Shown: piece after piece, positions 38,605 through 51,066 of the stretch
How positions within the stretch are numbered: the first letter of the stretch is position 1
Layout of the letters: each line of letters starts with the position of its first letter
Assembly: GCF_007954425.1 (NCBI RefSeq)
Contig: NZ_CP042345.1
Span: 1,116,001 to 1,180,000, forward strand
Reading direction: 5' to 3'
Source: Novosphingobium ginsenosidimutans
GTDB taxonomy: Bacteria > Pseudomonadota > Alphaproteobacteria > Sphingomonadales > Sphingomonadaceae
DNA length: 64,000 nucleotides
Notes under the pieces: generated by a model
What the model was told of the DNA's origin: nothing
Databases searched by the model: none
Seen by the model: the letters and a program-made list of their open reading frames with translations, nothing else
Made by a program: the position numbers and the translations under genes

Positions 38605-39056
38605 CGCCGCGACTGGAAGAACTGGCGCAAAAGCCCGGCTGCCTCCGCCTCGCCCATGCCCGTGTAGACCTCTGGCCGGTGCAGACACTGCGCCTGTTCG
38701 AATACCCGCGCGCCGTGCTCCACTGCACCGCCCTTGGGATCACTGGCGGCATAGTAGAGCTTGCCGATCCGGGCGTGGCTGATCGCGCCGGCACACATCG
38801 GGCAGGGCTCAAGCGTCACCCACAGCTCGCAACCATCGAGACGCTCGTTGCCCAACACCTGCGCCGCGGCGCGAATCGCCAGCATTTCGGCGTGGGCGGT
38901 CGGGTCGGAAAGGCCGCGCGGCTGATTGTGGGCTGCGGCGATCACCTTCCCGTCCTTGACGATCACCGCGCCAATCGGCACTTCGCCTGCAGATTCGCCC
39001 GCCTGGGCCTCCATAAGGGCCAGTTGCATCGGTTCAGGCAGGGGCCAACGGCTCAT
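38601..39056 (-). CDS. tadA: tRNA-specific adenosine deaminase TadA
   Basis: A 151-residue cytidine-deaminase-fold enzyme. The zinc site is HAEMLAIRAA (His, catalytic Glu) and LEPCPMCAGAI (two Cys). It converts wobble adenosine 34 of tRNA-Arg(ACG) to inosine. The N-terminus MSRWPLPEPMQLALMEAQ is normal for alphaproteobacterial TadA. The upstream region (255 bp to rpmB) contains the 81-bp palindrome. Confidence 0.95.
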   Translation of the reverse strand: MSRWPLPEPMQLALMEAQAGESAGEVPIGAVIVKDGKVIAAAHNQPRGLSDPTAHAEMLAIRAAAQVLGNERLDGCELWVTLEPCPMCAGAISHARIGKLYYAASDPKGGAVEHGARVFEQAQCLHRPEVYTGMGEAEAAGLLRQFFQSRR

Positions 39057-39111
39057 CTAGCCGGGCTAGATGGTAATTTTCGGTGCGGCAAGGGCATCCG
39101 CCCTTGCCTTG

Positions 39112-39192
39112 CAACACCGGCCCGCTCCCCCGGCCCGGCCACCCGACAGGATACCATATGGGTGGCTGGGCCGGGGGAGTGGGCCGGTGTTG
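39112..39192. repeat. 81-bp palindromic element, copy 1 (33-base arms)
   Basis: The left arm 39112-39144 begins CAACACCGGCCCGCTCCCCC and its inverted partner is 39160-39192, with a 15-base centre. The arms match at all but two positions, both of which become G-U pairs in RNA. The same element recurs at 57040-57121. Here it lies between the divergent starts of tadA and rpmB, upstream of the likely rpmB promoter. No target-site duplication is visible, and nothing in it codes for protein. Confidence 0.92.
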
Positions 39193-39235
39193 CCGCGCTT
39201 CTGCCGCGCAGAAGCGCCAAAAACGACGGTATGCC

Positions 39236-39264
39236 TTGACCTTTCAAGGGTGAATCGGTAAGCG
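39236..39264 (+). promoter_or_regulatory. Probable sigma-70 promoter of rpmB
   Basis: TTGACC at 39236-39241 and TAAGCG at 39259-39264 are 17 bases apart, close to the housekeeping consensus for the -35 and tolerable for the -10. The implied start is about 40 bases before the rpmB ATG. Identified by eye only. Confidence 0.5.
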
Positions 39265-39311
39265 CGCGCCTTCCCCCACACGGGTATCCATTTTTCTAAG
39301 CGAGTTTTGAC

Positions 39312-39596
39312 ATGTCCCGCATCTGCGAACTGACCGGCAAGGGTCGTCAAGTTGGCCACAACGTCAGCCACGCCAACAACAAGACCAAGCGCGTCTTCCT
39401 GCCCAACCTGCAGAACGTCACGCTGATGTCGGAAAAGCTGGACCGCAGCTTCAAGTTCCGCGTTTCGACCCACGGCCTGCGCTCGGTCGAGCACGTCGGT
39501 GGCCTCGACAACTGGCTGCTGAAGACCTCGGATACCAAGCTTTCGGCCAATGCGCTGAAGGTGAAGCGCGAACTGGTCAAGGCTCAGGCCGCCTGA
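39312..39596 (+). CDS. rpmB: 50S ribosomal protein L28
   Basis: A 94-residue L28 of the alphaproteobacterial long type. [20 protein letters not shown] at the N-terminus and [12 protein letters not shown] are diagnostic. It assembles into the large subunit near the E site. It is monocistronic: a promoter-like sequence lies upstream and a strong terminator 39 bases downstream. Codon choice is strongly biased, consistent with high expression. Confidence 0.98.
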
Positions 39597-39634
39597 TTCG
39601 CAGCGGACCCATCGGGTCTGCACCGAAACAAGCC

Positions 39635-39667
39635 AAGGCGTCCGGTCAGCCGGGCGCCTTTTGCTTT
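39635..39667 (+). terminator. Intrinsic terminator of rpmB
   Basis: AAGGCGTCCGG, loop TCAG, then CCGGGCGCCTT followed by TTGCTTT forms a stable stem with a short T-rich tail. It overlaps the last codons and stop of the convergent phytase-like gene, so the same DNA serves as coding sequence on the other strand. Confidence 0.85.
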
Positions 39668-40683
39668 GCTTGCGATCCGCGCGGCGGCAGATCGGACAGG
39701 CGGAACTGCAAGCGCAGCAGCAGGGTCCGCTGGGTTGCGGCGTTGTTGTTGTCGCTGATCAACCAGGCGTTGAGTGTGCCATCGGGGCCCGGTTCGATCG
39801 CCAGGCCTTCATAATTCTCTTCCAGGCCTGTGCCATCCAGGCTGGCCAACATGGTCCCGCCCCAGTCCTGCCCGCGCCGGATCGTCGCCGGATCGGCCAG
39901 GACCAGCTTGGTGCCAAAGCGCGGCGGCATCGGCCAGCGCAGTTCGCGCAGCAGGATCAGAACCCGCCCATCAGGCAATTGCGCCACATCGGTAGGCCGG
40001 TAACCGGCTGGAGCCAAATAGCGGAAATGCCACGAGCGATCGGTGCCATCCGGCGCGTGGGGCAACAGGCGCCCCTGGTGTGCCGGGCCGCCCGCTTCGG
40101 CGATGACCAGGAAACGCCCATCCCTGAGCCGGGTCATGGCCTCGGGACCGCTGTTTTCCGGCCACCCGGCCAGCTCCGGAGCGGCGAAGACTTCCGGCTT
40201 GGCCTGTCCGGGAGCAGTGCGCATGAACGTGTTGCGCCGTTCCAGGGTCAGCCAGACCGCCACCCCATCTTGATCAAGCGCGGCCGCTTCCACGTCACGC
40301 GACGATTTGACGCCGGCATATTTGGGCAACAGCCGCGCTATCCGCACGGCACCGGGCTGTCCGGGCATGGGCAAGTCAAGCCGCACGCCGAAATCGCTGA
40401 ATGCGCTGAGCCGCCCTGGTCCGGAAACGACCAGCGCGGAGTACCCGCCGAAATCCCGGTTGGGACTGGACAGGTCCCAGGCGCCAGTCAGGCGGAAGGG
40501 GCCAAGGCCCGCTTGATCGCGCGTTAGGGGCAATGATACTGCGGAAACGGACTGCGTGTCGTTTGGCAAGACCGGCTCACGCAGCCAGATCACCGGGGCA
40601 AGGCCGACCAGCAGCAGGACAGTAAACAGGCGGCGCGGCATGGCGCCGGGCATGGCCTGCATGGCCCGGCGAATCAAGCGCAT
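39646..40683 (-). CDS. Esterase-like activity of phytase family protein (exported)
   Basis: A 345-residue protein from the ATG at 40683 (40641, MPRRLFTVLLL, is an alternative giving a tidier signal sequence). A hydrophobic segment near residues 17-30 is followed by a beta-propeller-like region with GGYSALVVSG, RDVEAAALDQDG and ENYEGLAIEPGPDG, and near the end LISDNNNAATQRTLLL. This matches the phytase-like 'esterase-like activity' family, of unclear biochemical function. It is divergent from the next gene and convergent with rpmB. Confidence 0.82.
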   Translation of the reverse strand: MRLIRRAMQAMPGAMPRRLFTVLLLVGLAPVIWLREPVLPNDTQSVSAVSLPLTRDQAGLGPFRLTGAWDLSSPNRDFGGYSALVVSGPGRLSAFSDFGVRLDLPMPGQPGAVRIARLLPKYAGVKSSRDVEAAALDQDGVAVWLTLERRNTFMRTAPGQAKPEVFAAPELAGWPENSGPEAMTRLRDGRFLVIAEAGGPAHQGRLLPHAPDGTDRSWHFRYLAPAGYRPTDVAQLPDGRVLILLRELRWPMPPRFGTKLVLADPATIRRGQDWGGTMLASLDGTGLEENYEGLAIEPGPDGTLNAWLISDNNNAATQRTLLLRLQFRLSDLPPRGSQAKQKAPG

Positions 40684-40751
40684 CGCCGCAATTGACCTGT
40701 GCCAGGACGGGCGGCATTGTCCTGCCATCCGCGAACGAGGAGACCGCGCCG

Positions 40752-41285
40752 ATGTTCCGCCCGACCCCTACTCTTGCCGGCCTGTGCCTGCTTGTTGCCG
40801 CGCTGCCCGCCCAGGCAAAGGACAAGCCGCTCGACGGCCCGCCGCCGGCCGTGTTCCAGGCCGTGGTTGACTGCAAGGCGCTGAGCGATCCGGCGGCGCG
40901 GCTGGCCTGCTATGACAAGGCGGTCAGCGCCATGGATGCGGCCCGTACCGCCAAGGAACTGGTGGTGACCGACCGTGCCACCGTGCGCGAAGCCAAGCGG
41001 GGGCTGTTTGGCCTGTCGCTGCCCAGCATCAAGCTGTTCGGCGGCGGCGACAACGACGATGACGAGGTGAAGGAGATCGAGAGCAAGATTTCCGCCATCC
41101 GCATGGCCAGCGATGGCTTCCCGGTCTTCACGCTGGAAGACGGTGCGCGCTGGAAGCAGACCGACGGGCGCAACACCTTCCCCAAGGCGGGCCAGAAGAT
41201 CCGCATCCGCAAGGCATCACTGGGCAGCTATGTCGCCAGCATCGATGGCCAACCCGGCGTACGGGTCATCAGGCAGGCCAATTGA
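40752..41285 (+). CDS. Exported protein of unknown function (177 aa)
   Basis: A 177-residue protein from the ATG at 40752. The signal peptide (LAGLCLLVAALPAQA) is followed by AVVDCKALSDPAARLACYDKAV, a two-cysteine motif found in many small proteobacterial periplasmic proteins. A Lys/Asp-rich linker (GGGDNDDDEVKEIESK) leads to a small beta-rich C-terminal domain (FPVFTLEDGARWKQTDG, PGVRVIRQAN). Function is unknown. It converges with the first of the four paralogous small genes, 6 bp apart. Confidence 0.75.
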   Translation: MFRPTPTLAGLCLLVAALPAQAKDKPLDGPPPAVFQAVVDCKALSDPAARLACYDKAVSAMDAARTAKELVVTDRATVREAKRGLFGLSLPSIKLFGGGDNDDDEVKEIESKISAIRMASDGFPVFTLEDGARWKQTDGRNTFPKAGQKIRIRKASLGSYVASIDGQPGVRVIRQAN

Positions 41286-41291
41286 CGCTAT

Positions 41292-41612
41292 TCAGGGTTC
41301 GTTGCGGGTCATTTGGTCGACCGGCGGGATTGATCCGCGGATCCGGTCCGCCGTGTCGCGGGCGTTTTCATTGCCATTGGCATCAAGCCGCGCCCATTCC
41401 TGGTTAGTACGGCACACCTTGGTCCGGCTGCGCTTGACGAGCGATCCGGTCTCCGCATCGCGAATGCAGCGGATGTAGTTGGGGTGATCGGGCGTCAACG
41501 TTGCGTTGTAGGCGCGGATTTCTGACGCTTTCATCAGGATCGGCCCCGTAATCACCGGTGCGGCGGCGGCAGGCGCGCTGGCCAGAACCAGGATAGTGGC
41601 AAGCAAAGACAT
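41292..41612 (-). CDS. Small exported protein, tandem paralog 4 of 4
   Basis: A 106-residue protein with a signal peptide (LLATILVLASAPAAAAP). It shares the family core: KASEIRAYNATL, HPNYIRCIRDAETGSLV, then VCRTNQEW and an acidic Asn-rich tail. The two conserved cysteines would probably form a disulfide after export. It is the last of four tandem same-strand paralogs; a one-residue insertion before the second Cys makes it the most divergent. Function is unknown and no named domain is recognised. Confidence 0.8.
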   Translation of the reverse strand: MSLLATILVLASAPAAAAPVITGPILMKASEIRAYNATLTPDHPNYIRCIRDAETGSLVKRSRTKVCRTNQEWARLDANGNENARDTADRIRGSIPPVDQMTRNEP

Positions 41613-41657
41613 CGTCCTTCTCCTCAGCTTGGCGCAGAGCCAGATGGCCCGACCGGT

Positions 41658-41975
41658 CTAATTGCTGTTTACGGCCTTGCTGCTCATTGCATCCTGAACG
41701 CGGCGCACTTCTTCGTTGCCCGCTCGGTCGGCCGCTTCCCATTGCGCGACGGTTCGGCAGCTGAAGTTGCGCGAGACCAGCGAGCCGATTGCCGCCGAAC
41801 GCACACAGCGGATGTAGTTCGGATCGGTGCGCTGCAACTTGGCATTGTGGGCGCGGATCTGAGCCTGGCTCATCTTCTTGGGATCGACGGCGGCTGGCGC
41901 TTCGAGCGTGGCCGGCACGACCACCGAAGGACCCGACACACCGATCAGCAGCGGCACTAGCAAGGAACTGAGCAT
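41658..41975 (-). CDS. Small exported protein, tandem paralog 3 of 4
   Basis: A 105-residue paralog with a signal peptide (MLSSLLVPLLIGVSG). Core: KKMSQAQIRAHNAKL, DPNYIRCVRSAAIGSLVSRN, FSCRTVAQWEAADRAGNEE. It is closest to paralog 2 (both have SCRT and ADR-GN-E), which suggests duplication from neighbour to neighbour. It is 45 bp before paralog 4 and 36 bp after paralog 2. Unknown function. Confidence 0.8.
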   Translation of the reverse strand: MLSSLLVPLLIGVSGPSVVVPATLEAPAAVDPKKMSQAQIRAHNAKLQRTDPNYIRCVRSAAIGSLVSRNFSCRTVAQWEAADRAGNEEVRRVQDAMSSKAVNSN

Positions 41976-42011
41976 TGGCGTTTTGACTCCGACTCTGTCC
42001 GGGCGCGATCG

Positions 42012-42338
42012 TCAGGGGCCAGCCCGTTCGAAGTCCCAGAACTTGCTGGCCATCTTGTCGCCGATATCGCGCGCTTCATCATTGCCAACGCGATCAGCAA
42101 TGGCCCACTGCCGGTTGGTACGGCAACTGACATTGCGTGCCACCAGTGTGCCTATGTTAGCCGATTTGACGCAGCGGATGAAGTCGGGATGCTTGCGATC
42201 AAGCTTGCTGTTATGCTCGCGGATCTGGCTGGCGCTCATTGTCTTGGGATCGGGTTCGGCCTGCAGTGCTACAGCTGCTTCGCCAACCGGGGCGGCGGCC
42301 GCACCGGACAAGAGCATGATGGCAAGGGTGGTTAGCAT
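42012..42338 (-). CDS. Small exported protein, tandem paralog 2 of 4
   Basis: A 108-residue paralog, started at the ATG at 42338 to give the signal peptide LTTLAIMLLSGAAAAP; the frame is open upstream but only over paralog 1. Core: KTMSASQIREHNSKL, HPDFIRCVKSANIGTLVARN, VSCRTNRQWAIADRVGNDE, ending KFWDFERAGP. Unknown function; 35 bp separate it from paralog 1. Confidence 0.8.
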   Translation of the reverse strand: MLTTLAIMLLSGAAAAPVGEAAVALQAEPDPKTMSASQIREHNSKLDRKHPDFIRCVKSANIGTLVARNVSCRTNRQWAIADRVGNDEARDIGDKMASKFWDFERAGP

Positions 42339-42373
42339 CCTGGGCTCCCCGGAAATGATGCGACTCCGAAAGG

Positions 42374-42670
42374 TCAGTTGCCGCTGGAGTGCGAATTGGT
42401 CGTCATGTCGCGGGCCAGCTGATCGGCCCCCGCCCGCTGAACCTTTTCCAGCACCGCCCAGCGTTCGTTGGTCCGGCACACGGGTTTGCGCCCGACCAGC
42501 GAACCGGTATCGGCCTCGCGCACGCACTTGATGAAATAGGGATCCTTGCGATCAAGCTGCTTGTTGTGCGCCCGGATCTCCGCAGCCGACATTTCAGCCG
42601 GGTTCGGCTCTGGCATTGCGGTGGCGCTGGCGGGGGCTGCGGTGAGCAGCAACGTGAAGAGAATCGACAT
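42374..42670 (-). CDS. Small exported protein, tandem paralog 1 of 4
   Basis: A 98-residue paralog with the signal peptide MSILFTLLLTAAPASATA. Core: EMSAAEIRAHNKQL, DPYFIKCVREADTGSLVGRK, PVCRTNERWAVLEKVQ. It is first in the array and lies 125 bp after the beta-hydroxylase gene on the same strand. Unknown function. Confidence 0.8.
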   Translation of the reverse strand: MSILFTLLLTAAPASATAMPEPNPAEMSAAEIRAHNKQLDRKDPYFIKCVREADTGSLVGRKPVCRTNERWAVLEKVQRAGADQLARDMTTNSHSSGN

Positions 42671-42795
42671 CCGAAACGGTTCCTATGCTGGTTCGCCGCG
42701 TGGCGGCCTGATCGTAACAGCTTATGGGCCAAGTCCGCGCCGCTCAACCCGCGCTGGACCGCCCGGCCAAGGCGTTGGTCGAAAAGTGCAGGTGG

Positions 42796-43968
42796 CTAGC
42801 GCGGGCCGCCACCGGTCAGCGCGCCATCGGCCGCCGCAAAATAGTGCAGGATCGCAGCCTGTTCGCGCGGGCTGAGATGCGGGTTCCAGCTATCGAAGAT
42901 CAGAACTGCACGGCGCTGGTCGCTGTTGTTCCACGCCTCGTGCTCGATCGAATCGTCAAAGGCAAAGGCCTTGCCCTCCACCCACTCGCGCGTTTCATTG
43001 CCAACCCGAAAGCCGCAGCCCGGGGGGACTTCCAGCGCCAGGTGAATGATCGCCCGGGTGTTGGTTACCCCAGTATGCGGCGGGATCTTGCTGCGGGGGC
43101 GCAGGACCGAGAAAAAGGCATTGGGTGCCCGGCCGGGAATTCGTGCCAGCGGCAGCCGCGCCAGCACCGCGGCCGTCTGCGGGCAGCGATCCAGCACTGA
43201 CTGGTGCGGGTCGCCATATTCCCAGAGGAAACAGGCTGACCAGTCGAGCGAGCCGTCGAGCGGGCTCCATTCATTGTCGGGGGTGCCTTCTTCGAACCGC
43301 ACATACGGCCGGATCAGGTCACCCGGGGCATCAAGCAGCGCGCGCAGTTCGGCCTGGATCTGCGGGGTGGCAGCCTCAAGCTCATCAAGCCAGGGGAAGT
43401 GCCGGCGATCGAAATACTCGTCTTCCGGCAGAAACGGATAGAACACGCCGGCGCACTGGTTGTGATAGACTCGCCGGCGACCCAGGGCGTGGTCGACAAA
43501 GGCGCGCACGCGGCGTTCCTCGGTCTCGTCGCGGCCCGGATCGGCGGCCAGCGCCGCCTCTGCCGCAGTCGCCAGTTTGGCCCGCAGCCCTTCGCAATAG
43601 GCCTGGCCGACGGCAAGTTCGGCGGCAACCTCGGGAGCCAGACCCGGCAGCTGGGCGGCAAGCTGTTCCACCCCGCTCCAGGCAACCAGCGCCTGCGCCT
43701 CTTCACCCAGTCGCTGGTGCAGCTGCGCCAGGCGCAACTGGGCAACGAAGTCGAGCCGGTCAAGCGACAGCGCCCGGTCCAACGCGGATCGTTCCCCGAT
43801 TGGATCACCGGCCAGGCGGTGGGCATGGGCCAGATTGCGCCACAGCGGACCGGCCGCCGGATCAGCAGCAGTGGCGCGGGTGAAGGCGGCAATGGCTACC
43901 GGCGCATTGCCGGCGCGCAGTGCGGCCATCCCTTCCGCATTGGCAAGCTGGGCTGGTGTAGAAGCCAT
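42796..43968 (-). CDS. Aspartyl/asparaginyl beta-hydroxylase with N-terminal TPR region
   Basis: A 390-residue protein. Residues 1-170 are TPR-like helices (NAPVAIAAFTRATAADPAAG, GERSALDRALSLDR). The C-terminal half is the AspH-type 2-oxoglutarate/Fe(II) oxygenase: SVLRPRSKIPPHTGVTNTR supplies the first His and the Arg, and FAFDDSIEHEAWN a second His. It would hydroxylate Asp or Asn side chains in peptides or proteins, although bacterial members may use other substrates. No export signal is present, so it acts in the cytoplasm. It is divergent from the sulfotransferase-like gene and upstream of the four paralogs. Confidence 0.88.
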   Translation of the reverse strand: MASTPAQLANAEGMAALRAGNAPVAIAAFTRATAADPAAGPLWRNLAHAHRLAGDPIGERSALDRALSLDRLDFVAQLRLAQLHQRLGEEAQALVAWSGVEQLAAQLPGLAPEVAAELAVGQAYCEGLRAKLATAAEAALAADPGRDETEERRVRAFVDHALGRRRVYHNQCAGVFYPFLPEDEYFDRRHFPWLDELEAATPQIQAELRALLDAPGDLIRPYVRFEEGTPDNEWSPLDGSLDWSACFLWEYGDPHQSVLDRCPQTAAVLARLPLARIPGRAPNAFFSVLRPRSKIPPHTGVTNTRAIIHLALEVPPGCGFRVGNETREWVEGKAFAFDDSIEHEAWNNSDQRRAVLIFDSWNPHLSPREQAAILHYFAAADGALTGGGPR

Positions 43969-44047
43969 TGCAGCAAGGCTTAGAAGCGGCGCGGCGGGGC
44001 GGCAAGCGGCAGTTGCGATGCGCCGCCGCCGGCCCTAGACCCGTGGC

Positions 44048-45061
44048 ATGACTGCCGCACCCGCGTTTGACCTGACCGATGCCGAATGGCTGGCGCATCG
44101 CTATGTCGAAAGCGACGATGCGGTGCGGTTCATCCATGTGCCGCGCGCGGAGCATGAACGGCAGGCGTTCCTGATCGATAGTTTGCTGGGGGTCAGGCCC
44201 ACCGCCGCCGATCTGCCGGCGCAGGGCCTGCTGGCGCTACCGCGCGGCCGGGTGCATTTCCTGTTTCACTCGGCCTTTTGCGGATCGACCCTGCTCGCGC
44301 GGGCGTTGTCCGTGCCGGGCGTGGCGATGGGGCTCAGCGAGCCGGCAATCCTCAACGACGTTGTCGGCTTCCGGCGACGGGGCGCGCGTCCGGCCGCGGT
44401 GGCGCGCACGGCCGACCTCGCGCTGCGCTTGCTGGGCCGTCCCTTTGGGCCGGACGAAGCGGTGATCATCAAGCCGTCTAACATCATCAATCCGCTCGCC
44501 GAGCTCTTGCTGGCGCTGCAAGAGCAGGGGCAGGCGCTGTTCCTCTATGCCCCACTGGAAACCTTCCTCGTCTCAGTCGCCCGCAAGGGGCTGCACTGCC
44601 GCGCCTGGGTTCGGGAATTGCTTGAAGGCTATGTCCACGATCGTTTCATCGACCTTGGCTTTGCCCCGGAGGACTATTTCCGGCTGACTGACCTTCAGGT
44701 TGCAGCGGTTGGCTGGCTGGCGCAGCACCGGCACTTAACCACGCTGGCAAGCAAGCTGGGCGGGCGCCTGGCCAGTCTCGACGCAGACCTGCTCACCGCC
44801 CAGCCCGAGGCTGCAATTTCTGCCGTCGCGGCGCATTATGGGCTGACGCTCGATGCGGCGGCAGTCGCCGCTGGCCCGGCGTTCCAGCGCAATTCCAAAA
44901 GCGGCGCGGCCTATTCGCCGATAGAGCGCAGCGCCGACTACGCGGCCGCGCGCGCCGCCCATGGCGAGGAGATCGGCATGGTCGTGACCTGGGCCGAGGC
45001 GGTTGCCGCCAATGTTGGCCTTTCGCTGGCCGGCCCCAATCCGTTGCCGGTTCAGGCGTAG
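44048..45061 (+). CDS. P-loop sulfotransferase-like protein
   Basis: A 337-residue protein. RVHFLFHSAFCGSTLLARAL looks like the sulfotransferase PAPS 5'-phosphosulfate loop (normally xxRSGTTxL), and EAVIIKPSNIIN and LFLYAPLETFLVSVARKG resemble the strand and 3'-phosphate-loop regions. The sequence has no clear TPR part. It overlaps the TPR-sulfotransferase convergently by 10 bp and has a 79-bp divergent gap to the beta-hydroxylase. It could be an active enzyme or a degenerate relative. Confidence 0.65.
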   Translation: MTAAPAFDLTDAEWLAHRYVESDDAVRFIHVPRAEHERQAFLIDSLLGVRPTAADLPAQGLLALPRGRVHFLFHSAFCGSTLLARALSVPGVAMGLSEPAILNDVVGFRRRGARPAAVARTADLALRLLGRPFGPDEAVIIKPSNIINPLAELLLALQEQGQALFLYAPLETFLVSVARKGLHCRAWVRELLEGYVHDRFIDLGFAPEDYFRLTDLQVAAVGWLAQHRHLTTLASKLGGRLASLDADLLTAQPEAAISAVAAHYGLTLDAAAVAAGPAFQRNSKSGAAYSPIERSADYAAARAAHGEEIGMVVTWAEAVAANVGLSLAGPNPLPVQA

Positions 45062-46554
45062 CCGAACTTTTCGATCCAGGGCTGCAAGATCGGCAGGACC
45101 GGTTCGAAGTGGCGTGCGAAGGGTTCCCACTGTCCACGCCCGTCATAGAGCCCGCGCCGCACCTGGCTGGCGCTGGCCGTGGCAACCCCGCGGTCCTGCG
45201 CCGTACGATCGAAGCGTCGGAGCGATTCGTCCCAGGGCAGGTCCAGGAAGGCAGACATTGCGCGGGTGGTTCCGTCGAAATCGCGAACCAACCCATGATA
45301 ATCGACTTCATGAAAAGCCAGCGGCAGACGGTCGCGGGCCAGTTCGATCAGCCGCATCATCGCGTCATAGTGCCAGGCAGTGCGCTCAAGGCTCGTGAAT
45401 TCGAGCGCGGCACTGGTCAAGGCAAAGCTGGTGCGGAAGCAGCTGAGCACCACGTCACGCGGATCGCGGCGCATCACCAGGATACGCGCCTGCGGAAACA
45501 GGCGCGCAATCAGTGGTAACCGTGTGGCCTTGAGCGGATCCATGTCGACAAAAGTCTGTCCGGTCGGGTCGATGCCGGCCGCACGGACATGGTCCCAATA
45601 GGCCTGGGCGGGATTTGCCAACGCTGCCGCATCAAGCCCGGCCAGCCGGGTAATCCCGCCTGGTTCGGCCAGAAAGGCCCGATCTGCCTCTACCAGTGTC
45701 GGTCGCTCCTCAAGTGCCGTCACCTGGGGCAGGGAAGCGAGCACGTTCTCGACCAGAGTGGTGCCCGAGCGCGGGTATCCGAGCAGAAACACATGGCCTG
45801 CCGCAGCCCCAGTGGGGTCGGGGGGTGGCGGCTGGGCCCAGGCTGCGCGATCGGCCGCAGCAAGTTCGGCCGTGATCCGTTCGATCAAGGCGCGATGGGT
45901 TTCGCGGCTGCCGGCCGGCGGTTCATGCAGGCGGGCGAAGTCGGACTGGGCCTTGGTGTAGACGGCATAGGCGGCATCGGGTTCGGCGCAACGGGCCAAG
46001 GCATCGCCATAGGTGGTCAGGAGCTGGATCCGTTCAGGCGATGGCGGGGCGGGTAGAGCGGCCCGTGGGGCCAGGAGGTCGCGGGCAGCGGCCGCATTGC
46101 CCTGTTCGATCTCGACCGTGGCGAGCGCTGCCGCAGCAATCGCATTGTCCGGCTCCTCGGCGAGTGCGGCCTGGGCATGATGGCGGGCGCGGTCTGCCAG
46201 GCCATCGCGCGCAGCAAGGGCTGCGAGTCCGGCATGGGCGGCCGCATTGGCCGGTTCGAGCGCCAGGACCTGTTCGTAGGAGGCCCTGGCCGCAGCCATC
46301 GATCCGCCGGCATTGAGAACGAAGGCGCGCTCGAGCCAGGCTTCGGCACAGCGTGGATCGCCGCGCAGCGCGGCATCGCAATGCAGCACGGCATCGCGCA
46401 GCCGGCCCTGCTGGCGCAGCAAGCTGGCCATGCCGACCAGCGCCAGTGGATCGACCAGCGGCTCGCGCAGCAGAGCATCGAACAGCGCAGCGGCCCGGGC
46501 ATGATCGCCGGCGGCGAGCGCGGTCCAGGCCTGGGAGAGACGGCTGTCAGTCAT
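45052..46554 (-). CDS. TPR-repeat sulfotransferase
   Basis: A 500-residue protein. Residues about 1-215 are tetratricopeptide repeats (DHARAAALFDALLREPLVDP, LRDAVLHCDAALRGDPRCAE, PANAAAHAGLAALAARDG). The sulfotransferase domain begins with HVFLLGYPRSGTTLVENVL (PAPS-binding loop) and has ILVMRRDPRDVVLSCF (3'-phosphate site). Members move sulfate from PAPS to peptides, saccharides or lipids. It follows the TonB-dependent receptor by 112 bp, with a terminator in the gap. No signal peptide is seen. Confidence 0.88.
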   Translation of the reverse strand: MTDSRLSQAWTALAAGDHARAAALFDALLREPLVDPLALVGMASLLRQQGRLRDAVLHCDAALRGDPRCAEAWLERAFVLNAGGSMAAARASYEQVLALEPANAAAHAGLAALAARDGLADRARHHAQAALAEEPDNAIAAAALATVEIEQGNAAAARDLLAPRAALPAPPSPERIQLLTTYGDALARCAEPDAAYAVYTKAQSDFARLHEPPAGSRETHRALIERITAELAAADRAAWAQPPPPDPTGAAAGHVFLLGYPRSGTTLVENVLASLPQVTALEERPTLVEADRAFLAEPGGITRLAGLDAAALANPAQAYWDHVRAAGIDPTGQTFVDMDPLKATRLPLIARLFPQARILVMRRDPRDVVLSCFRTSFALTSAALEFTSLERTAWHYDAMMRLIELARDRLPLAFHEVDYHGLVRDFDGTTRAMSAFLDLPWDESLRRFDRTAQDRGVATASASQVRRGLYDGRGQWEPFARHFEPVLPILQPWIEKFGYA

Positions 46555-46605
46555 CGCGCCTGCTTCAAGGGGCAGGCGGGCATCAAGTCAAGCCGCAGGG
46601 TGGCA

Positions 46606-46642
46606 AGCAAAAGAAAGGGGGCGGACATTGCTGTCCGCCCCC
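46606..46642 (-). terminator. Intrinsic terminator after the TonB-dependent receptor gene
   Basis: On the minus strand GGGGGCGGACA, loop GCAA, TGTCCGCCCCC is followed by TTTCTTTTGC: an 11-bp perfect stem with a T-rich tail, 24 bases past the stop. It should limit read-through into the sulfotransferase gene. Confidence 0.88.
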
Positions 46643-46666
46643 GATCTTGTTTCAGGTTCTGACAGG

Positions 46667-49600
46667 TCAGAACTTGATGCGGGCCGAGACCGCGAAACGG
46701 CGACCCAGCGCGTCGTAGGTCGACGGGTAGGTGTTGCCGCTGTTGTACGAGGTCGAACCGATCGAGCTACCGACGACCGGCGGATCCTTGTCGAACAGGT
46801 TCTGGACGGCTGCGGTGAACGTCAGGTTGTCATTGACGTTGAAGCGCAGGGTCAGGTCGAACCAGTCGTAGGCACCGATCTTGCCGAAGTTGACGGTTTC
46901 ACCTTCACGGTAGCCGAAGCCAACCGGCAGCGGGCCCGTGTACGCCGGAGCAACCTGGATGATGTCATCCGGTTCCTGCTGCATGCCCGAGATGTGACGC
47001 CACAGGATCGACGCGTCCAGCTTGCCGAACGTGAAGGTGTTGCGCCACGACCACTGCCACTTCGGCTGCATCGAGCCGGTGAAGCCGCAGTTCGCGCTGT
47101 AGTAGCCGACGCATTCGCGGTCGAAGTTCAGCGGGCTGTTCACGTTGGCGTTGAAGGTCTGCGAGATCGCATAGTTCAGCACGAAGCCCGAGCTCCACTT
47201 GGCAAAGCCAAGGTCGTTCGCATAGTTCGCGATGAGGTCGATACCGCTGGTCTTCAGGCGGCCGCTGTTGCTGAGCGTCTGCGGGAGACCCAGCGTGGTG
47301 GCCGGGTCACCGTCCAGACCACCGGTCACCGGGTTACGGCGAATGGCGGTGCAGAGCGGGTCAGTGGCCGAAGCGGCAGTGACGCCGGACGGAGCCGGGC
47401 TGCCGAAGCAGGCCGCGATCACGTCGCCCGAGGTCGGAGCGCCGATTTCGTCGGTGACCTTGATGTTGCAGTAGTCAACCGAGAGCGAGAAGCCCGGCAG
47501 GAACTGCGGCTGGAACACCGCACCAACGGTCCAGGTCGTGGCCTTTTCCGGAGCGAGGGCCAGGTTGCCACCGCCGGTCGAGTTGGCCTGGGCCGCGGTC
47601 GGGTTGAGGATCGAGCCGATCGTGCCGACCGGAGCGCCCTGGGCAATACAGACCGCACGCAGGTTGGCGTTGGTGGTCGGAGCAGCGCCGGCGCAGGGGT
47701 CTGCGGCGAGGCTGGTCAGACCGGTGCTGACCGGCGAGAACAGTTCGGCAATGTTCGGGGCGCGAACGGCGCGGGCGTAGTTGCCGCGGATCTTCAGGTC
47801 GTCAACCGGTTCCCAGCTCAGACCGACCTTGTAGGTCCAGTCGTTGTTGGTGCCGCCACCGTCGATCTTCTGGCTCGAGAAGCGAGCGCCGGCTTCAAGA
47901 GTCAGGCTCTTGAAGAAGGGCTTGTCTTCGAGCAGCGGAGCGACGATTTCGCCGTAGCCTTCGTAGACCTTGTAGGCACCGAAGATGTCCGGAGCCGCGC
48001 CGCCGGCGCCGCCCAGTTCACCCGGGGTCTTCGACAGGATGTCCGAAGCCTGACGAGCAGTGTAGTTGCGGTATTCGGCACCAAGCGCGAAACCGATCGG
48101 CTCGCTGGCACCCGGCGACGAGAAGCCGAGGTCACCCGAAACAACCGCGCGGACCTGGGCCAGCGAGGTCTTCACCTGGGTGGTGCTGTCATCCGACAGG
48201 AAGTCAGCCGCCGCGGCCGAGATCGAACCAGCCGGACCGAACGGGTTCACCGGGACGCAGCCACCGGTGTTGGTGATGCAGGTCGTGGTGTTGTTGGCCA
48301 ACAGAGCCTGCCGCCAGCGCGACTGCAGGGTGTAGTTCTTGATCGCCTGGACCTTGTCCGATTCGCCGTACGAAGCCGAAAGGTCCCAGTCGATCGACGA
48401 GGTGATCGCACCGCGGGCGCCGACGCGATAGTCGAACACGGTCGAGGTGTAGTTGCTGATGCGCGGACCGACTTCAACCGCGCGACGCGACAGGTTGAAG
48501 GTGACGGTGCGGTAGTTCGGGTCGCTCGGGCCGGTCGCGGTAGCAGCGGCGGCGCAGACGGCCGGACTGTACAGCGGCACGTAGGCGCCGCCCGTTGCCG
48601 TGTTGAATGCGCAGAACTGGCTGCGCAGGGTCGCCGGCATGTAGGGGTTATTGAGGTTCATCGTCACCGAACCGCCGAACGAACCCGAAGGCGCGATGAT
48701 GGTGTCGATGGTGTTCTTAGAGAACAGCCCGCGGGTGTAGACTTCCACCGCGTCGCTGACTTCATAGTTCGCCTGAGCGAAGATGTTGTAGCGCTTAAAC
48801 GGCGTCTGGAAGATGTTGTACGGGTTGAAGTTGAAGAATGCGTAGCTCGAGCGAGCAAGGCCGGTGGCCGGATCGACCTGGCGGGTGCCGCCGTTGGCAA
48901 CGGTGCCGTCGGTGTTCGGCGTGGTGGTGCCAGCGATCAGGCCGCGGGTGCCGGTGATGCGCGAGGGAACCGTGGTGCCCGAACCGCCCAGCGTGCCGGT
49001 GTACGAATCGATCCCGAAGACCGAGAAGTCACGGCCGCCCTGATAGACCGGGTCCGATTCCTGGTAGCCGACGCTGAGCACGGCGTTGCCGCGGCCGTCA
49101 TCGAAGTTCGCACCGATGGTGAGGTCAGCGCGCAGGTAGTTTCCGTCACCCTGCTGGGTGATCTGTTCGCCGAGCGACAGGTCGATGCCGGCGAAGTCCT
49201 TCTTGGTGACGAAGTTGACGACGCCGGTGATGGCGTCCGCACCATAGGTGGTCACGGCCGCACCGGTCAGCGCGTCAACACGGCTGACGAGGGCGAGCGG
49301 GATGTTGTTGAGGTCGACGCGGCCCTGAAGGTCGGCCGGGACAATGCGGTTGCCGTCGAGCAGCACGATGTTGCGGTTCGAGCCGAGACCACGAAGGTCG
49401 ACATACGAAGAACCGCCGTTACCGTTGTTCACGGCCGTACCGATGTTCGGGACGATGCCGGGCACTTCACGCAGGACTTCTTCCGCGGTGTTCGACTGCT
49501 TGAGTTCGATCGCGTCCGAAGTGGTGACGTTGACCGGGTTGGCCTGTTCGAGGTTAGGGTTGCGGATCAGCGAGCCGGTAACGACGATCGTCTGATCGGC

Positions 49601-49723
49601 GGCATCATCTTCCGCGTCCTGCGCAAAGACGGCAGTCGAGGAAAGCATGGCGACGGCAGAGCCGGCCAGAGCCAGCGACTGCAGGCAGGTCGCGCCCGAA
49701 AGCGATTTCTTGGTGGTTTTCAC
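46667..49723 (-). CDS. TonB-dependent outer-membrane receptor
   Basis: A 1018-residue receptor. A signal peptide (LQSLALAGSAVAMLSSTAVF-AQ) is followed by the TonB box-like QTIVVTGSLIR, a plug domain (to about 180: SNTAEEVLREVPGIV, YVDLRGLGSNRNIVLLDGNR, TTYGADAITGVVNF) and a large 22-strand-type barrel ending in ARIKF with a terminal Phe. It imports a large or scarce substrate using TonB energy. It heads a minus-strand set with the TPR-sulfotransferase. Codon use is strongly biased, so it is probably highly expressed. Substrate unknown. Confidence 0.95.
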   Translation of the reverse strand: MKTTKKSLSGATCLQSLALAGSAVAMLSSTAVFAQDAEDDAADQTIVVTGSLIRNPNLEQANPVNVTTSDAIELKQSNTAEEVLREVPGIVPNIGTAVNNGNGGSSYVDLRGLGSNRNIVLLDGNRIVPADLQGRVDLNNIPLALVSRVDALTGAAVTTYGADAITGVVNFVTKKDFAGIDLSLGEQITQQGDGNYLRADLTIGANFDDGRGNAVLSVGYQESDPVYQGGRDFSVFGIDSYTGTLGGSGTTVPSRITGTRGLIAGTTTPNTDGTVANGGTRQVDPATGLARSSYAFFNFNPYNIFQTPFKRYNIFAQANYEVSDAVEVYTRGLFSKNTIDTIIAPSGSFGGSVTMNLNNPYMPATLRSQFCAFNTATGGAYVPLYSPAVCAAAATATGPSDPNYRTVTFNLSRRAVEVGPRISNYTSTVFDYRVGARGAITSSIDWDLSASYGESDKVQAIKNYTLQSRWRQALLANNTTTCITNTGGCVPVNPFGPAGSISAAAADFLSDDSTTQVKTSLAQVRAVVSGDLGFSSPGASEPIGFALGAEYRNYTARQASDILSKTPGELGGAGGAAPDIFGAYKVYEGYGEIVAPLLEDKPFFKSLTLEAGARFSSQKIDGGGTNNDWTYKVGLSWEPVDDLKIRGNYARAVRAPNIAELFSPVSTGLTSLAADPCAGAAPTTNANLRAVCIAQGAPVGTIGSILNPTAAQANSTGGGNLALAPEKATTWTVGAVFQPQFLPGFSLSVDYCNIKVTDEIGAPTSGDVIAACFGSPAPSGVTAASATDPLCTAIRRNPVTGGLDGDPATTLGLPQTLSNSGRLKTSGIDLIANYANDLGFAKWSSGFVLNYAISQTFNANVNSPLNFDRECVGYYSANCGFTGSMQPKWQWSWRNTFTFGKLDASILWRHISGMQQEPDDIIQVAPAYTGPLPVGFGYREGETVNFGKIGAYDWFDLTLRFNVNDNLTFTAAVQNLFDKDPPVVGSSIGSTSYNSGNTYPSTYDALGRRFAVSARIKF

Positions 49724-49983
49724 AGGTCAGTCCCTCTGTAGATCCCGTGGATTTCCCCACGAGGATTCCTGATCATCCGATCCCCGGGCAGGGCACAGCC
49801 CCCGCCAAGATTGCGGATAGATGAACGGCTCATGGCGAAAAGGGGCGGGGCGGGCAAAGCATTTCGGCCGGATAACCGCAATCATTGCAGCTATGTTGCA
49901 AGGCTGCCACAGGCCAACACCGAAAGCGTAATATAATTACAACAGCAGCAAAATCAGCGTAATTCTGAAACGCGGAACGGTTG
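49724..49983. other. Leader/promoter region of the TonB-dependent receptor
   Basis: This 260-bp gap lies between the M23 peptidase stop and the receptor start, both genes on the minus strand. Its distal half (49921-49960) is unusually AT-rich (TAATATAATTAC), the likeliest place for the receptor promoter. A small GTGG/CCAC inverted repeat (49747-49760) lies just before the start codon. No gene is seen. Confidence 0.45.
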
Positions 49984-50850
49984 TCATGGCTTCGGCATTG
50001 CTGGCATCGGCGGCACGAAGAGTTCCGCATCAAGCCGGGACTCACGCCATTTCAGGCTCCAGTGTAGGTGCGGCCCGGTCGCCCGTCCGGTCATGCCGAT
50101 CCGGCCAATGAACTGCCCCTGCCGCACCACATCGCCAGTCGCCACCGCATGGGCCGAACAGTGCAGGAAGGCACTGTTGAGCCCCATGCCGTGATCGATC
50201 ATCAGCAACCGGCCCTCAAGCGTGAACGGACTGTCCGCCGCCAGCATCACCACGCCGTCGGCCGGAGCAACAAACGGGGTCCCGCTGGTACCGGTCGCGA
50301 TATCGGTGCCTGAGTGATAGCTACCAGGAGTGCCGTTGTAGATCCGCTGCGAACCGAAGAGGCCGGACAGGCGACCGATCACCGGCCAGATCATCTTTTG
50401 CCGCCAGCCTTCGCTTAGCCGCTCGACGCTGCGCGCGGCATTGATCTGGGCCAGCTCGGCAGCACGGCGGCGGGCGAATTCCTCGCTCGGCGGCGAGCCG
50501 GGGCGCGGGCCAAGCGGAATGTGCTCGATCTTCCAGGCTCGGCTGGCAATCGGAATGGCATAGTCGTCCAGCGTGCCGTCTGCGCTTTCTGCCATCAACC
50601 GCGCGATCGGACCGGCATCGCGATCAAAGGCGATCAGGAAGCGGCCATCGGGGGCTATCCGCACCGCCTTGCCATTAAGCGCTAGATGCGCCGTGCCGCG
50701 CGGCACCGTCCCGCGGGCCCAGCCGCCCTGCACAAGCTGCCCGGTCAAGGCAAAGGGTTCCGCCGGCTGATCGGCTAGCGCGCGCCAACCCCCTGCCATG
50801 CCCAGTCCGGCTAGACCGGCCCCGCCCAGGATCAGCCCGCGGCGGTCCAC
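49984..50850 (-). CDS. M23 family metallopeptidase (peptidoglycan endopeptidase-like)
   Basis: A 288-residue exported protein. The N-terminus MDRRGLILGGAGLAGLGMAGG resembles a Tat signal lacking the second Arg context, or a Sec signal. A beta-rich N-terminal domain is followed by the LytM/M23 domain: YHSGTDIATG (zinc His and Asp) and TGPHLHWSLKW (HxH), preceded by GVVMLAADSP and ALLMIDHG-like strands. It would cut peptidoglycan cross-bridges in the periplasm, or act as an amidase activator. It is 12 bp after the DUF2093 gene. Confidence 0.9.
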   Translation of the reverse strand: MDRRGLILGGAGLAGLGMAGGWRALADQPAEPFALTGQLVQGGWARGTVPRGTAHLALNGKAVRIAPDGRFLIAFDRDAGPIARLMAESADGTLDDYAIPIASRAWKIEHIPLGPRPGSPPSEEFARRRAAELAQINAARSVERLSEGWRQKMIWPVIGRLSGLFGSQRIYNGTPGSYHSGTDIATGTSGTPFVAPADGVVMLAADSPFTLEGRLLMIDHGMGLNSAFLHCSAHAVATGDVVRQGQFIGRIGMTGRATGPHLHWSLKWRESRLDAELFVPPMPAMPKP

Positions 50851-50862
50851 GTCGGGGCTGAC

Positions 50863-51066
50863 TCAGCCCCGGCCCAGCAGGTGGCGGGTTGCGATTTCGG
50901 GCGAAGCATAGGCCTCTTGGCGCTCCACGCTCCAGTATCGCAAGGCTTCAAGGGCAATGGCTTCACCACTCGCGGCGCAGACCACGTGTTTGCCGGGCGT
51001 CAGCACGCGGAAACCGTTGGCCTGATAGAACAAGGTGGCGGGGCGATCGGAAGAAGACATCAGCAT
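50863..51066 (-). CDS. DUF2093 small protein
   Basis: A 67-residue protein matching DUF2093: LFYQANGFRVLTPGKHVVCA and ALEALRYWSVERQEAYAS are the conserved segments. It is a short cytoplasmic protein of unknown function, limited to alphaproteobacteria. It is located between xseA and the M23 gene on the same strand, a recurring arrangement. Confidence 0.85.
   Translation of the reverse strand: MLMSSSDRPATLFYQANGFRVLTPGKHVVCAASGEAIALEALRYWSVERQEAYASPEIATRHLLGRG

Follow-up and report, generated by a model that had tools for sequence, protein, structure and literature searches.

Genes and proteins of the locus

Within the genome of Novosphingobium ginsenosidimutans (3.12 Mb, a single contig) we have analyzed a stretch of 64,000 nucleotides (NZ_CP042345.1, positions 1,116,001 to 1,180,000; the window, in which all coordinates below are counted unless the genome is named). 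It contains a set of genes, hereafter the cassette, coding for a TonB-dependent receptor (TBDR), a sulfotransferase with tetratricopeptide repeats (TPR-ST), a divergent sulfotransferase-fold protein (PLOOP), a protein of the aspartyl/asparaginyl beta-hydroxylase family (AspH), four small proteins with two cysteines (S1 to S4) and one more small protein, the fifth partner. PLOOP and the fifth partner are on the plus strand and all the others on the minus strand, where the order is TBDR, a terminator-like hairpin, TPR-ST, AspH and S1 to S4; the fifth partner ends the set. A preliminary description of this DNA, made from the sequence alone, had named all these genes except the fifth partner and every one was found by Pfam, open reading frame (ORF) analysis and alignment, together with a terminator-like hairpin at the place of the terminator that it had noted between the receptor and TPR-ST and with the single gene on the other strand (PLOOP). 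The enzyme and receptor families are known but their combination appears to be undescribed, and no description of the cassette was found in the literature searched, most subscription papers lying outside that search.

40752..41285, plus strand: fifth partner, 177 aa, predicted to be exported, with a Cys, a CYDK motif and a weak VasI-like N-terminus (PF11319, 16.5 bits, below cut-off)
41292..41612, minus strand: S4, 106 aa, two-Cys protein (alignment)
41658..41975, minus strand: S3, 105 aa, two-Cys protein (alignment)
42012..42338, minus strand: S2, 108 aa, two-Cys protein (ATG start taken at 42338)
42374..42670, minus strand: S1, 98 aa, two-Cys protein, predicted to be exported (alignment, genome searches)
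42796..43968, minus strand: AspH, aspartyl/asparaginyl beta-hydroxylase family, 390 aa, with a TPR-like N-terminus (PF05118, 145 bits; TPR below cut-off)
44048..45061, plus strand: PLOOP, divergent sulfotransferase-fold protein, 337 aa, convergent with TPR-ST and overlapping its end by 10 bp
45052..46554, minus strand: TPR-ST, 500 aa, tyrosylprotein-sulfotransferase-like catalytic domain (PF13469, 110 bits; TPR above cut-off)
46617..46642, minus strand: terminator-like hairpin between TBDR and TPR-ST, with a stem of 11 bp and then a tail rich in T
46667..49723, minus strand: TBDR, 1018 aa, Plug and beta-barrel, GTG start (PF07715, 70 bits, and PF00593, 120 bits, both above the Pfam cut-off)

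Judged by similarity, the cassette receptors are one subfamily. Those of three related genomes (G005, G057 and G094) have 55-60% identity to the window TBDR (1072-1184 bits), and the next-best receptor in the same genomes reaches at most 435 bits (38% identity along the whole protein, with as much as 40% in short segments).

Compared with solved structures, TPR-ST matched seven sequences at E <= 0.01, all of them protein-tyrosine sulfotransferases (E 2.5e-10 to 2.2e-6). Its PRSGTT, the 5' motif for 3'-phosphoadenosine 5'-phosphosulfate (PAPS), and its EE, the position of the catalytic Glu, align to those of TPST. A pattern combining the P-loop and EE was matched by 34 of 35 cassette TPR-STs and the last one (L092) has PRSGQ and EE, so that by its motifs TPR-ST would be a protein-tyrosine sulfotransferase. 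The host genome contains two APS-kinase domains and therefore PAPS should be made.

The gene coding for PLOOP starts 79 bp from that of AspH and diverges from it. By sequence the protein was difficult to place, with no Pfam match for the window protein, weak ones for 6 of 40 homologues (best E 0.043) and weak matches to the PDB (best E 0.19). With shallow alignments hhalign found no match; with broader ones (66 versus 21 sequences) it gave E 8.5e-5 and a score of 40.2, while 30 column shuffles scored at most 18.7. The predicted structure is confidently a sulfotransferase fold, with tyrosylprotein sulfotransferases as the seven best PDB entries, and on the basis of this model we consider the fold settled, as the preliminary description had anticipated in calling the protein sulfotransferase-like. 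PLOOP paralogues were also seen in other contexts. One (L054, positions 2032000-2051500 of the own genome) adjoins a TauD/TfdA dioxygenase (PF02668), and in L044 and L045 a paralogue beside the cassette adjoins a gene of the same cluster.

The nearest solved relatives of the AspH catalytic domain are AspH chains (E 4e-27). A two-motif signature that covers the residues binding the metal and 2-oxoglutarate (2OG) was found in 50 of 51 cassette AspH proteins, the exception being L043. Sequence and PF05118 score point to a genuine AspH catalytic domain; the TPR part that had also been attributed to this protein gave only matches below the Pfam cut-off. The three enzymes have in common that their nearest solved catalytic relatives are protein-modifying enzymes. 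Two further AspH-family genes of the own genome have no receptor nearby: one (L051, at 1213717) is near rho, a dienelactone hydrolase, mnmE and mnmG, and the other (L052, at 2806185) lies between MFS and NamZ genes.

S2 to S4 have 37-39% identity to S1. The four paralogs had been described as exported, which stands as a prediction from their hydrophobic N-termini only (there is no Lys or Arg within the first eight residues of any window copy), and the ORF 42012-42527 had its start corrected to the ATG at 42338. One to four copies are found per locus. The core of the family consists of two cysteines, typically separated by 15 residues, with G[ST] between them and a Trp following. The spacing of 15 holds in 83 of the 90 ORFs that have the core, a count that includes genomes fetched twice. 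No scanned member matched Pfam, and the best PDB match (E 0.043) was to an unrelated-looking protein. A strict profile (E <= 1e-6) gave 27 matches in 98 related genomes, 26 of them beside a cassette AspH (4 of the 26 had served to build the model) and the remaining one elsewhere in the own genome. With a broad profile, 11 genomes yielded 20 matches. Of these, 15 lie in cassettes (7 of the 15 had served to build the model) and five have no recognised cassette part around; the profile found none in G046 and G027, both devoid of PLOOP, nor in G094, with a cassette lacking S. S is a dedicated part of the cassette.

Conservation and relocation of the cassette

PLOOP was searched in the 98 relatives and matched in 27 genomes. 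The best match reached at least 40% identity in 21 of them, with AspH within ~2 kb in 20 (the exception is G087, locus L050). A scan of public genomes provided 47 loci, 44 of sphingomonad type (L071-L114) and three from distant relatives (L115-L117); some of the 44 are the same genomes as the G-numbered relatives. Sphingomonads (Novosphingobium, Sphingorhabdus, Sphingopyxis, Sphingomonas and Altererythrobacter) account for 41 of the 44 loci and the other three are labelled just Pseudomonadota/Proteobacteria. Of these loci, 43 have TBDR (the exception, L086, is a short contig), 43 have AspH, 41 have S, 36 have the fifth partner and 32 have TPR-ST. The orientation is fixed: PLOOP and AspH are divergent in all 51 loci having both (with a gap of 135 bp in the median and of 1710 bp at most), and PLOOP and TBDR are convergent in 51 of 51.

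In many loci the cassette is found at one site, between two genes that we take, by eye, to be xseA and rpmB (bL28). However, in G005, G032, G037, G048 and G057 it is located elsewhere, and the distance from xseA to rpmB is there only 2.6-2.8 kb. Cassettes also recur near clpB, with those of the window's type in L043, L045, L046, L047, L048 and L132 and of another type in L061 and L062 (the Pfam tests of this site covered L043, L062 and L132). The fifth partner also accompanies the non-syntenic cassettes L043, L044, L045, L047 and L048. Because the set is found again in unrelated parts of the chromosome it is not a case of simple synteny, and its association is confirmed to exceed chance. The conserved neighbourhood proposed as a check in the preliminary description was thus found, the genes occurring together in the 44 loci of sphingomonad type as well as in unlinked contexts. 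That unrelated genes were just inherited together in one place, as the xseA-rpmB position common to many loci might suggest, is very improbable, since it is contradicted by the relocated cassettes, by the presence of the set at different sites and in different genera, and by the near confinement of S to cassettes.

The same places also receive a second kind of cassette, overlooked in the preliminary description. These type B cassettes are found beside xseA in L057, L058 and L059 and beside rpmB in L059 and L067. They have a TBDR of 32-34% identity, a longer TPR-ST, an AspH of 37-40% identity and, in part, the fifth partner and S-like proteins; some add a TPR-2OG-FeII_Oxy_5 enzyme (Pfam: L055, L056, L057 and L061), and PLOOP was not found in the type B stretches. 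The xseA/rpmB and clpB neighbourhoods are two hotspots that host alternative receptor-plus-enzyme cassettes across genomes.

Farther away, the set was found whole or partial in five loci from other genera of the same family (L131-L135). A scan of the phylum detected distant PLOOP relatives in 11 of 397 genomes, among them L136, L138 and L141 in the same family, L139 and L140 in the same class and L137 in the same phylum. None of these six has a recognised cassette partner apart from a TBDR match of 25% (L138), a TauD/TfdA dioxygenase adjoining the PLOOP relative (L136, by tblastn) and a 2OG oxygenase (L141). With the TPR-ST profile, scoring the best four candidates per genome, there were 12 matches at E <= 1e-60 in 10 of the 397 genomes; one is the own protein and the other 11 are in ten regions, two of them with a TBDR. 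These two belong to an alphaproteobacterial family of another order and by profile matches contain AspH, the fifth partner, TBDR and two TPR-STs (L159) or a TPR-2OG oxygenase, AspH, TPR-ST and TBDR (L161). Furthermore, in L116, a gammaproteobacterial metagenome-assembled genome (MAG) of the Kangiellaceae, a TBDR, a TPR-ST, two 2OG oxygenases and a PLOOP homologue are found within ~8 kb.

Around the cassette of the window, the M23 gene (49984-50850) and xseA stay with the chromosomal site and not with the cassette. A 360-aa ORF (39646-40728, minus strand) adjoins the fifth partner and is present in 12 of the 44 loci. Upstream of rpmB there is a near-perfect GC-rich hairpin (39111-39193, stem ~35 bp, DNA fold -49.8 kcal/mol, z -10.6), with Rfam miRNA matches on both strands that are below the gathering score and look like a mere palindrome; no known RNA scored above gathering in 39000-51000.

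Inheritance in two blocks

The cassette is inherited in two blocks, a structure that had also been missed before: receptor and TPR-ST presence have been swapped jointly against a backbone of PLOOP and AspH, with which S goes. The joint movement of the receptor and TPR-ST presence follows from the tree change counts and from approximately unbiased (AU) tests. Counting as present a TPR-ST of >200 bits (35 of 52 cassettes; the 27% TPR-ST of L049 was counted absent), three changes in its presence are needed on the TBDR tree and six on each of the PLOOP and AspH trees. The TBDR tree comprises 48 of the 52 rows, since L086 has no receptor and L092, L096 and L101 are fragments of at most 300 aa, and in it 29 of 31 receptors accompanied by TPR-ST are inside one 30-row clade. 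A single clade of the cassettes with TPR-ST (without L044 and L045) was rejected on PLOOP (AU p 4e-30). L102, L095 and L108 share a receptor clade, yet this grouping was rejected by PLOOP (p 1e-48) and AspH (p 2e-37); the association of L102 with L100, L106 and L107, united by PLOOP and AspH, was rejected by the receptor tree (p 1e-46). The receptor of L077 is long and compositionally odd and falls in the clade of receptors with TPR-ST, but its cassette has no TPR-ST, possibly by recent loss or by a MAG error.

Pairwise distances, available for 44 of the 52 loci, correlated for S with r 0.84 with PLOOP, 0.84 with AspH and 0.66 with TBDR. The partial correlation was 0.74 for S-PLOOP given TBDR and 0.37 for S-TBDR given PLOOP. 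This speaks for S as a partner of PLOOP and AspH, within the limits set by species history, and against S as a receptor-specific ligand.

Possible function and comparison with known systems

We propose that this is a conserved cassette of receptor plus tailoring enzymes, in which the latter modify cassette-encoded proteins (S and/or TBDR) before export, and we give this reading a probability of about one half. AspH and PLOOP, plus TPR-ST where present, would be active in the cytosol and would act ahead of Sec export. The AspH/PLOOP pair, diverging from a mostly short intergenic region, would most likely tailor S, encoded directly behind aspH, and TPR-ST, whose presence is tied to the receptor allele, would most likely sulfate TBDR or something specific of the receptor type. 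The role of S, in the periplasm or at the cell surface, would then be to assist the receptor. The preliminary description had left open whether the enzymes modify the ligand of the receptor or the small proteins, and of its options the latter is the best supported, S being found directly behind aspH, almost only in cassettes and diverging with PLOOP and AspH.

Several observations weigh against this proposal. Two loci with S, L110 and L132, lack AspH. In three others that contain TBDR, PLOOP and AspH (L046, L112 and L135) neither profile nor pattern detected S, and L131 has S, AspH and PLOOP with no TBDR within ~8 kb. Outside the order, eight of the ten regions with TPR-ST also have no TBDR (two of the ten, L165 and L166, are short). 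In PLOOP a divergent HSAFCGST-type loop replaces PRSGTT, and therefore its use of PAPS is putative. As for possible target sites in the receptors, none of 19 conserved Tyr columns was rare in cassettes without TPR-ST, and overall 18 of 420 receptor columns conserved in cassettes with TPR-ST were specific to them (28 receptors with and 15 without TPR-ST, after dropping rows of up to 800 aa and L044, L045 and L077). Neither was the EGF-type AspH motif found in any of 46 cassette receptors of more than 800 aa. The link between receptor and TPR-ST has exceptions, with L077 (no TPR-ST) inside the TPR-ST receptor clade and L044 and L045 (TPR-ST present) outside, the groups for the AU tests were chosen after the trees were seen, and the receptor of L102 is a 438-aa fragment. 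The distance correlations are confounded by common species history. In 31 loci with TPR-ST the distances of this enzyme correlated with PLOOP (0.81) and AspH (0.84) more than with TBDR (0.73; partial correlation given PLOOP 0.48), so that descent dominates within the TPR-ST clade.

Among other explanations, the enzymes might act on the peptide or glycan ligand imported by the TBDR, detoxifying or preparing it, with S and the fifth partner as periplasmic carriers. TBDRs import substrates and tailoring or catabolic genes often adjoin them. Also, in L116 a PLOOP homologue, two 2OG oxygenases and TPR-ST are beside the TBDR with a serine-hydrolase-like ORF (by eye) between. However, no inner-membrane transporter, peptidase or glycosidase appeared among the cassette proteins scanned (the gene at 39646-40728 is outside the scan), AspH and sulfotransferases are biosynthetic and the nearest solved relatives of the enzymes act on proteins. 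This option of the preliminary description thus gained no direct support and we regard it as unlikely.

Rather improbable too is that S itself is the ligand, a secreted tailored peptide (metallophore or signal) taken back by the TBDR in a loop of the methanobactin type or of other ribosomally synthesized and post-translationally modified peptides (RiPPs). The one to four S copies encoded within each cassette with a fixed two-Cys core would fit. In addition, PMC10040529 lists in its Table 2 sulfotransferases and an aspartyl beta-hydroxylase of the related bacteria Pontixanthobacter/Allopontixanthobacter with cluster numbers next to lasso-peptide genes. The cluster numbers of that table suggest that enzymes and peptide genes may be physical neighbours, a hint that such enzyme pairs act on peptides and that a RiPP with the same tailoring pair could exist. 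But S tracks the PLOOP/AspH backbone over the exchanged receptor, whereas a receptor-specific ligand should track the receptor, three loci keep the receptor without S, and no RiPP cyclase, protease or exporter was detected in two scans, of 10 and of 8 window proteins.

It is slightly less probable still that AspH (in the manner of LpxO/OlsC) and the sulfotransferases modify lipids or glycans of the envelope, the neighbourhood being kept for regulation. Many bacterial sulfotransferases act on glycolipids, and PLOOP gave structural Z scores of 11.9-12.2 with glycan sulfotransferases and 14.0 with an olefin-synthase domain. AspH matches the OlsC (90.5 bits) and LpxO (51.8 bits) models, but far below their cut-offs (450 and 500), whereas AspH chains of the PDB match it well, and the TPST-like domains point to protein substrates.

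In a more tentative generalization of the proposal that cassette proteins are modified before export, the cassette might belong to a relocatable bacterial module in which cytosolic sulfotransferases and AspH sulfate and beta-hydroxylate small exported proteins (and the receptor) before secretion, accepting alternative receptors and recurring with other enzyme mixes (L159, L161 and L116). If true, it would be a bacterial counterpart, on the cytosolic side, of the Golgi and endoplasmic reticulum modification of secreted proteins. In Gram-negatives large nutrients enter mainly through TonB receptors, and sphingomonads carry many of these without an assigned role. The cassette suggests that receptors can rely for their function on sulfation or hydroxylation preceding export, a layer of which no description was found. 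It also provides a first functional context for the S family, and the cassettes with and without TPR-ST represent a natural experiment; examples are Novosphingobium sediminis NBRC 106119 (L089), which has TPR-ST, and N. arvoryzae KCTC 32422 (L082), which lacks it.

Among known enzymes the tyrosylprotein sulfotransferases, TPST1/2 and the bacterial RaxST, are closest to PLOOP and TPR-ST. Unlike these, the cassette sulfotransferases have no signal-peptide-like start, are packaged with a TBDR, and one is fused to TPR (TPR-ST) and the other lacks a canonical P-loop (PLOOP). The cassette AspH resembles human AspH in the PF05118 catalytic domain, the conserved His/Asn region and the TPR-like N-terminus. 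It differs in that the cassette receptors have no EGF-type substrate motif and in that the S cysteines, mostly 15 residues apart, do not fit the EGF consensus (judged by spacing, in 83 of 90 ORFs). Compared with RiPP and lasso-peptide clusters, the maturation enzymes and exporter are missing from the scanned proteins. The loci of SusCD and FecA type also have a receptor with dedicated neighbours, and the SapC/tryptophan halogenase loci are TBDR loci with accessory genes. Here, in contrast to the SusCD and FecA types, there is no STN match in TBDR at E <= 0.1 and no SusD-like lipoprotein among the ten proteins scanned by Pfam (40692-50850), and the neighbours are enzymes of the protein-modification type. 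The type B cassettes are also alike in combining a TBDR and a TPR-ST, in part with AspH, an S-like protein and the fifth partner, and they occupy these two chromosomal places or positions close by.

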